A stretch of 48,889 nt of DNA from the NCBI GenBank assembly GCA_029862005.1, contig JAOTYD010000024.1, forward strand, positions 1-48,889. Reading direction: 5' to 3'. A program made the translations under genes and the position numbers. The DNA is from Gammaproteobacteria bacterium (GTDB lineage: Bacteria; Pseudomonadota; Gammaproteobacteria; GCA-001735895). Under the pieces are notes generated by a model that was not told the DNA's origin, did no database searches, and saw only the letters and a list, made by a program, of their open reading frames with translations. Below, piece by piece: positions 8,637 to 9,956 of the stretch. How positions within the stretch are numbered: the first letter of the stretch is position 1; every line of letters starts with the position of its first letter.

Positions 8637-9143
8637 ATGGCAGAATCCAGAAACACACAGGCTGGCGACGACTTGATGGAAAAACTGGTCGCGGTAAATC
8701 GCGTGGCCAAAGTAGTCAAAGGCGGGCGTCAATTTGGCTTTACCGCACTGACCGTAGTTGGTGATGGCAATGGCAAAGTTGGATTTGGATATGGCAAAGC
8801 GCGTGAAGTACCGCTGGCAATCCAGAAAGCGATGGAGAAGGCGCGTGCAAACCTGACGACGGTTGCGATTACCAACGGCACCTTGCAGTATCCGCTGAAT
8901 GCGCGCCATGGTGCCGCCAAGGTTTACATGCAACCTGCCTCGGAAGGTACCGGTGTAATCGCCGGGGGTGCAATGCGTGCGGTTTTCGAAGCCGTGGGCG
9001 TACACAATGTGCTGGCCAAGTGCAATGGTTCGCGCAACCCGATTAACCTGGTTCGCGCGACGATCAGTGGCTTGAGAAATATGAAGTCACCCGATGATAT
9101 TGCCGCCAAACGCGGTAAAACCGTCGAAGAAATTACAGGTTAA
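8637..9143 (+). CDS. rpsE: 30S ribosomal protein S5
   Basis: S5 contributes to decoding accuracy and the mRNA entry channel. The 168-residue product has the double-stranded RNA-binding-like N domain, with [36 protein letters not shown] at about 20-55, and the C domain [25 protein letters not shown]. It follows rplR by 23 bases, with TCGGGAGAATCG before the ATG. Confidence 0.97.
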
Positions 9144-9147
9144 GGCG

Positions 9148-9522
9148 ATGGCTGACGAAAGCAAAACAGTAAAAAAAGCCGCCAAGAAGACGTCGGTGAA
9201 GAAAGCTGCGACCAAAAAGGCCGCAGTCAAGAAGGTTGCTGCAAAGAAATCCTCGCCGAAGGCTGAAACTGCGGTTGTTGCAAAGAAAGCGGCGTCGAAG
9301 GCAGCGCCCAAAAAAACAGCTGCACCAAAAGCAGATTCCGCTGTCAAAAAACTGAGTGTGACGCTGGTGCGCAGCAAGAATGGCCGGCTGGCTTCGCACA
9401 AGGCCTGCGTGGCGGGCCTGGGATTGCGTCGCATGCACCAGACCGTGCAGGTGATCGATACCCCGGAGAACCGCGGGATGATTAATCGCGTCCAGTATAT
9501 GCTTAACGTCGAGGAAGCGTGA
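9148..9522 (+). CDS. rpmD: 50S ribosomal protein L30 with a 66-residue Lys/Ala-rich N-terminal extension
   Basis: L30 is normally about 59 residues. Here the family core starts near residue 67 ([36 protein letters not shown]...) and is 58 residues long, ending with the usual MLNVEEA-type tail. Before it lies a low-complexity stretch made of KKAA, VKKAA and TKKAA units, like the tails of bacterial histone-H1-like proteins. The ATG at 9148 has TAAGGCG upstream and lies 4 bases after rpsE. No start with a ribosome binding site is seen close to the core, and the frame is continuous, so the extension is probably translated. It could bind rRNA or DNA. The function is unknown. Confidence 0.9.
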
Positions 9523-9956
9523 TGTACCTGAATAGTTTAAAACCTGCCAAGGGATCTACCAAAGTATCCAAGCGTGCCGGCCGGGGAATCGGATCGGGTC
9601 TCGGCAAGACTGCCGGACGCGGTCACAAAGGCCAGAAATCACGTTCCGGCGGCGGTGTGCGAGCAGGATTCGAAGGTGGGCAAATGCCGTTACAAATGCG
9701 TTTGCCGAAGTTTGGATTTACCGCGCGTAAATCCCGCTTCTCGGCCGAGGTACGCCTCGGCGAAATCGAAACCTCGGGTCTCGAGGATATCAGCCTGAAG
9801 GCACTGATCGACGCCAACCTGGTGCCGATACAAACCCGTCAGGCCAAGATTTTCCTGTCGGGAGAACTGAAGCGCAAGGTTAGCGTCGACAACAGCGTTG
9901 CGGTCACCCGTGGCGCGCGTGCAGCGATCGAAGCAGCCGGTGGCAAGGTAGCGTAG
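9522..9956 (+). CDS. rplO: 50S ribosomal protein L15
   Basis: L15 is a late assembly protein of the large subunit. The 144-residue product starts [14 protein letters not shown] and has the glycine- and basic-rich segment [28 protein letters not shown] near 15-45. I use the ATG at 9522, which shares its A with the rpmD stop (TGATG). A GTG one codon earlier is less likely. secY follows after 4 bases. Confidence 0.96.

Follow-up and report, generated by a model that had tools for sequence, protein, structure and literature searches.

Low-complexity stretches on bacterial ribosomal proteins have been surveyed, and 77 of the 822 regions collected contain at least 30% lysine; the carriers include S2, S16, L25, L21 and others, with S2 among the commonest, and the lysine-rich regions were taken to suggest nucleic-acid binding, while the name L30 does not occur in the main text of the survey (PMC6821194). 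N-terminal extensions of uL30 have been described as well. In Borrelia burgdorferi the extension forms a bent alpha-helix close to the peptidyl transferase centre, where it occupies the bL37 pocket, helical uL30 extensions were reported for other species too, and a shorter form of the Borrelia protein was thought likely (PMC10618245). The Coxiella peptide CLaSP overlaps the same cleft as this Borrelia extension (PMC13392368). Among eukaryotes, mosquito RpS6 has a histone H1-like C-terminal extension whose likeness to H1 was ascribed to convergence (PMC548281), and RpL23a is named as a further ribosomal protein with an H1-like tail (PMC11764897). The Pseudomonas protein AlgP carries a C-terminal tail of disordered KPAA repeats; a fragment of this tail and KPAA-repeat peptides bind DNA, the tail is required for granule spacing, and the similar tail of PhaF is thought to act likewise (PMC9239181). 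No report of a lysine-rich tail on L30 was found among the matches listed in searches of open-licence papers.

Here we describe such a tail, encoded by the rpmD gene in a window of 48,889 nucleotides (the whole stretch of DNA that was analysed) from a gammaproteobacterial genome, with the features collected in Table 1. The gene sits at the usual place in the spc operon, in the order rpsE-rpmD-rplO with the neighbours named by eye, and it is the single L30 match in a search of the contigs of the source genome. A tail-less second L30 paralogue was considered and rejected, as no further L30 match was present in the contigs of this genome. The Pfam L30 domain PF00327 begins at residue 70 and scores 57.3 bits against a cut-off of 23, and the NCBIfam model rpmD_bact (TIGR01308) matches residues 70 to 123 with 62.1 bits against a cut-off of 44.65, so that the domain scores, together with the single copy in the spc operon position, place the protein in the L30 family. 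Likewise, the alignments to 39 uL30 sequences of solved structure begin at residue 64-70 and end at residue 121-124 of the window protein, and no residue before 64 was matched in solved structures (phmmer, E up to 0.01).

Table 1. Coordinates of rpmD, its two parts and the adjoining genes in the window
Feature	Position	Strand	Basis or remark
rpmD open reading frame	9148..9522	+	124 aa plus stop; ATG 9148-9150, stop 9520-9522
Lys/Ala-rich N-terminal tail of L30, residues 1-66	9148..9345	+	composition, same-genus homologues, predicted coil
L30 (uL30) core, residues 67-124	9346..9519	+	Pfam, NCBIfam, solved uL30 chains, pLDDT
rpsE (S5), directly 5' of rpmD	8637..9143	+	gene named by eye; stop 9141-9143
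rplO (L15), directly 3' of rpmD	9519..9956	+	listed ORF from GTG 9519; gene named by eye

The sequence-only reading of this DNA had claimed a 66-codon Lys/Ala tail in front of a normal L30 core, and this description was confirmed: the 66 residues contain 20 lysines, 20 alanines and no arginine, and the L30 domain follows. The tail has an acidic start (MADES), then KKAA-type repeats, and a junction ending in DSAV. Of all 66-residue stretches in the window's open frames it is the best, with 41 residues that are K or A in comparison to 23 for the runner-up elsewhere, and the enrichment is thus more than chance. With 20 lysines in 66 residues the tail lies right at the 30% lysine line of the published survey (PMC6821194), a line which was applied here to a plain residue count instead of the region-calling program of that survey. 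The tail was also claimed to be histone-H1-like, which held for the composition and failed by profile, since Pfam HC2 scored 23.4 bits on the tail, under its cut-off of 40, and the NCBIfam H1-like models remained far under theirs (NF038053, 20.9 against 80; NF038052, 14.9 against 135). As membership of an H1-like family is judged by a score above the curated cut-off over the tail, and none of these scores reaches it, the label histone-H1-like, judged from the sequence, describes a likeness in composition only.

AlphaFold2, run on an input alignment of 12 sequences (5 tailed and 7 untailed), predicted the tail as coil with low confidence (block-mean pLDDT of 46 to 54 over residues 1-60) and the core with block-mean pLDDT of 90 to 94 over residues 71-120 and 84 in the last block. 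A structured domain in the tail was rejected, as the domain matches were sub-cut-off and compositional and the low-confidence model showed coil. At the DNA level, Tandem Repeats Finder returned no tandem array in the window tail (0 rows at score of at least 30), and the repeat of the window copy is thus a repeat at the protein level. Period-15 DNA arrays are present in many tailed sister species; a DNA satellite as the primary entity was rejected because of the missing array in the window copy, despite those arrays in many relatives. Two runs of seven A lie within the window tail, at 9171-9177 and 9310-9316, and are possible slippage sites.

As regards the start of translation, the rpmD ATG follows the rpsE stop by 4 nt, and an AGG at 9137-9139, 8 nt 5' of the ATG, was read by eye as a possible Shine-Dalgarno sequence. 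The frame is also open further 5', where the list of open reading frames starts it from ATG 9094, and the in-frame candidates in the window are ATG 9094 and TTG 9100 (both within rpsE), ATG 9148, GTG 9196, GTG 9358 and GTG 9367. GTG 9196, early in the tail, could yield a shortened tail, while GTG 9358 and GTG 9367 lie within the core and starts there would cut its first strand as placed by AlphaFold2. Across the genus, an ATG is found 4 to 5 nt past the rpsE stop in all 22 tailed species, the source species of the window included, and the tail frame is open in every one of them, in comparison to stops in frame +1 in 18, in frame +2 in 20, and in the three antisense frames in 6, 2 and 22 of the 22. 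From these sequences we infer that translation starts at ATG 9148. For the adjoining rplO, a start at ATG 9522 is likelier than the listed GTG.

A start near the core had been named beforehand as a finding that would speak against the tail. For the window it was judged unlikely, as its tail-core junction is free of ATG, GTG and TTG, which is also the case in 13 other tailed species; the remaining 8 of the 22 have such a codon, giving an L30 of 55 to 66 aa, so that those species could make a short form in addition to the long one and the objection keeps some force there. The junction codon is an ATG in 3 of the 8 (G007, G014 and G017; loci L063, L055 and L056), and this in-frame ATG, exactly at the junction, could give a short L30 of 57 aa alongside the long one.

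The search for L30 homologues with the same extension, which had been proposed as a check, bore the tail out in 22 of the 24 complete same-genus genes, with whole proteins of 115 to 157 aa, and the other two, in G015 and G024, have a 10-residue leader only and no tail. The genus was represented by 31 genomes, one per species; the 24 are the L30 genes that were complete and read, six genomes (G001, G010, G019, G020, G022 and G026) were left out for having no L30 match and G025 for a gene cut by a contig end, and four loci (L031 to L034), which encode the same proteins, on contigs of equal length, as L067, L066, L065 and L028, were treated as copies and counted once. The family has two other genera, and their L30s are untailed (0 of 9, 62 to 64 aa, from 9 of 10 genomes with a match). 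A FastTree tree was built from S5, the L30 core, L15, L18 and the S2 core, with S2 missing for many taxa. The clade at the base of the genus has a support of 0.977, G015 groups with the tailed G008 and G017 (support 0.977), G024 groups with the tailed G027, G011 and G012 (support 0.945), and the split uniting the two groups has a support of 0.70. Since G015 and G024 are each nested beside tailed species, two losses are indicated, and parsimony by eye on these sequences suggests a single gain at the base of the genus followed by the two losses; separate gains within the genus could stand in place of this history. The tail is dispensable, as these two species do without it.

The results showed that the length of the tail varies within the genus while its net charge stays positive. 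Measured to the first core strand, the tails of the 22 species are 59 to 101 residues long and shift by whole codons (G016 and G028, for example, are five codons apart). The net charge is positive in all 22, ranging from +7 (in G005) to +25, and lysine to arginine is 481 to 16 in the tails in comparison to 68 to 124 in the cores of the same genes. The KKAA periodicity is no longer regular in G008 and G017, and the ten residues adjoining the core are partly conserved (e.g., APKSDSGVKK). For 65 pairs with core identity of at least 0.9, the median pN/pS was 0.27 for the tail, probably an underestimate because repeats aligned to match lower pN artificially, in comparison to 0.07 for the core, and this roughly fourfold ratio indicates weak constraint on the tail. 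In four pairs that align without gaps, the differences by codon position were 12, 28 and 45 in 294 tail codons and 7, 1 and 33 in 224 core codons; judging from these four pairs, amino acids change far more in the tail than in the core.

Lys/Ala tails on L30 were also found outside the genus. A second family of gammaproteobacteria, f110, has an L30 match in 59 genomes; 29 of the 30 loci read there have such a tail, made up of 24 complete tailed genes, two of them short-tailed (78 and 83 aa in all), and 5 genes that were cut, masked or startless but contain a Lys/Ala stretch; G459 is the sole locus read without a tail. In this family the tail often starts at an ATG that shares bases with the rpsE stop, and GGAG or GGGG then lies immediately 5' of it. 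The family is set apart from the genus of the window by untailed lineages in the FastTree tree, in which G414 stands as tailed, as its locus confirmed.

Isolated tailed L30s came from an alphaproteobacterium and a Clostridia genome, and from two genomes of the phylum sample (G798 and G514). In the class survey, which covered 369 genomes, at least 329 of them with an L30 match, 25 newly met L30s had a listed frame of at least 100 aa, of which 24 start near the core and one (L082) is tailed; short tails are undercounted here because shorter frames were mostly left unread. The phylum survey, with the window protein as query, covered 398 genomes, at least 367 with a match, and 6 loci were read, picked because their match extended 5' of the core or their open frame was long, giving tails in the two genomes just named and none in 4; several further matches beginning 5' of the core have an internal stop. 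Among the loci read from the listed matches, L30 tails thus appear, from their sequences, uncommon yet recurrent. The isolated cases (L045, L054, L254 and L255) have Lys/Ala or Lys/Thr N-terminal tails and are 88, 104, 117 and 101 aa long in all, and a Cloacimonadota L30 of 164 aa (L053:3001-3477) has a KKAA-type tail at its C-terminus.

The source genome contains further Lys/Ala tails. With the L30 tail as query and E up to 10, only two matches were returned, one to the query protein itself and one to the C-terminal end of ribosomal protein S2, while the S2 tail as query (E up to 1) returned five matches in four proteins, namely S2, L30, a putative topoisomerase I and an H1-like protein about 180 residues long. 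The S2 gene is located outside the window (G000 contig C7:57000-60500, L098), upstream of tsf and pyrH (both read by eye), and its C-terminal extension consists of an acidic Ala/Glu part followed by about 60 residues of KKAAT-type repeats. The putative topoisomerase I (L159, G000:C5) was named by eye and ends in a KKAA C-terminal tail. The H1-like protein (L160, G000:C3), rich in Lys, Arg, Ala and Pro, matched HC2 with E=1.6e-8 and 35.3 bits, under the cut-off of 40. Two AlgP/phasin-like proteins of the same genus, named by eye (L172 in G023 and L176 in G003), have long KKAAV or KKATT tails.

Every S2 gene read from the genus is tailed (26 of 26, with 2 truncated at contig ends), including those of the 18 L30-tailed species, out of 22, whose S2 was read, and so are both S2 genes of genus g2; in genus g3 two genes have shorter or weaker tails and the third is cut before the tail. 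Among nine S2 proteins from other families, KK repeats are absent in 7, and some occur in G040 and G049. The S2 tail probably arose before the L30 tail, since it extends beyond the genus into g2 and g3. S2 C-termini in f110 are lysine-rich in the 15 read, weakly in G462. They often end in a small conserved stretch after the lysine-rich linker (L209 to L223), which is replaced by KKPAA repeats in G406 and G416; compared with Rho_N, three such ends gave two weak sub-cut-off matches (E 0.0044 and 0.016) and one no match. The S2 companion tail and the separate L30 tails in other lineages go beyond what the sequence-only reading covered. The joint presence of S2 and L30 tails is no strong evidence of joint function, because low-complexity regions on S2 are common in bacteria according to the published survey (PMC6821194).

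The reading that we favour, and to which we would give about an even chance, is that the tail genuinely extends uL30 at its N-terminus and, as a disordered polycation, raises the affinity of the ribosome for RNA or other polyanions. It would work like the KKAA or KPAA tails of AlgP, PhaF and H1-like proteins, in which dense lysines on a flexible chain may bind polyanions with no sequence specificity. The L30 core would anchor the tail on the 50S subunit, the KKAAT tail of S2 would accompany it on the 30S subunit, and the ribosome might thus gain affinity for its own rRNA in assembly, for mRNA and for neighbouring ribosomes, with DNA or polyphosphate as possible further partners. This reading of a flexible ribosomal polycation is drawn from the precedents of AlgP (PMC9239181), mosquito RpS6 (PMC548281) and the lysine-rich ribosomal proteins of the survey (PMC6821194), and from such likenesses we infer both that the tail would stay on the ribosome and what it may bind. 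The extra rRNA contacts or second role that had been suggested for the tailed L30 are not supported as stated.

Two explanations concern the ribosome-bound protein as well. One is a near-neutral expansion, in which five-codon KKAxx repeats would be gained and lost by replication slippage at a tolerant exposed end; the period-15 arrays of many tailed species, the length changes by whole units, the relaxed pN/pS of the tail and the two inferred losses within the genus are all in its favour, but against it stand the strong bias of lysine over arginine with a positive charge in 22 of 22, the persistence of the protein repeat in the window though the array is gone from its DNA, and the spread of the tail through the genus with separate cases in other lineages, and we regard it as somewhat unlikely. 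Rather unlikely, in our judgment, is a specific structural role, in which the tail would be docked in the cleft of 23S rRNA H39-H42 and H89 and 5S rRNA, which is the site of the Borrelia uL30 N-terminal helix and of mycobacterial bL37, and would stabilise the large subunit. That pocket is filled by the uL30 extension of Borrelia burgdorferi, with helical extensions in other species (PMC10618245), it is overlapped by CLaSP in Coxiella (PMC13392368), and the partial conservation of the ten core-proximal residues would agree with docking; however, a repetitive tail of 59 to 101 residues, modelled at low confidence as coil with no helix, dispensed with by two same-genus species, and lying beyond the solved-structure matches, which never reach before residue 64 (phmmer, E up to 0.01), argues against it.

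The other explanations would take the tail off the ribosome or out of the protein. A moonlighting L30, acting away from the ribosome as an H1-like nucleoid protein, would agree with the resemblance of the tail to HC2 and NF038053 in composition and with the H1-like and AlgP-like proteins with Lys/Ala tails in the genus, but we consider it very improbable in a genome that has no second L30 copy in the contigs searched, keeps rpmD at the usual position, flanked by rpsE and rplO, already encodes a separate H1-like protein, and gives an HC2 score under the cut-off. Hardly credible to us is the alternative that translation also or only starts near the core, or that the tail is cleaved, leaving the tailed form minor or unmade: the junction ATG, GTG or TTG codons of 8 tailed relatives (ATG in G007, G014 and G017) and the shorter Borrelia uL30 that was thought likely (PMC10618245) speak for it, and they are countered by the lack of a junction codon in the window and 13 other tailed species, by the ATG at a fixed spot past the rpsE stop and the open tail frame in 22 of 22, and by the f110 genes, in which the ATG often overlaps that stop and is closely preceded by GGAG or GGGG.

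Returning to the disordered polycation, a bolder version, which we hold to be unlikely, is that some bacterial lineages made the whole ribosome a multivalent polycation, with lysine arms of the AlgP and H1-like kind on uL30 of the 50S and uS2 of the 30S subunit. The charged arms would let ribosomes bind the nucleoid, mRNA, polyphosphate or each other, and such arms on two subunits, repeatedly gained and lost, might amount to a bacterial counterpart of histone tails. Should the tails be active, bacteria would have evolved in them a simple handle for tuning the stickiness of ribosomes; should the repeats just be tolerated, they illustrate the freedom with which an exposed end of a ribosomal protein can expand. 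The question can be tested on natural sets with and without the tail (G015 in comparison to G008 and G017; G024 in comparison to G027, G011 and G012). Either way, L30 annotation and mass-spectrometric typing by size must allow for tails.

In comparison to the described systems, the window L30 shares with the ribosomal proteins of the low-complexity survey a lysine-rich low-complexity stretch, and differs from the cases in that source in being extended at the N-terminus, on uL30, through most of a genus, and together with an S2 tail (PMC6821194). The uL30 of Borrelia burgdorferi is the same protein extended at the same end, but its extension is a bent helix, while the window tail consists of Lys/Ala repeats, is predicted at low confidence as coil and varies in length (PMC10618245). 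The same end of the same protein is also extended in mammalian cytosolic uL30, where, likened by description, the extension is helical, unbent and runs in another direction than that of Borrelia (PMC10618245). Mosquito RpS6 and the window L30 both have an H1-like tail on a ribosomal protein (PMC548281), whereas the mosquito cases are eukaryotic and concern other proteins, with the RpS6 tail at the opposite end (PMC548281; PMC11764897). AlgP and PhaF resemble the window L30 in a disordered lysine tail joined to another domain, but they are granule-associated with the tail at the C-terminus, while the window protein is ribosomal with the tail at the N-terminus (PMC9239181). What is known already is thus lysine-rich stretches on ribosomal proteins and an N-terminal extension of uL30 of other structure.
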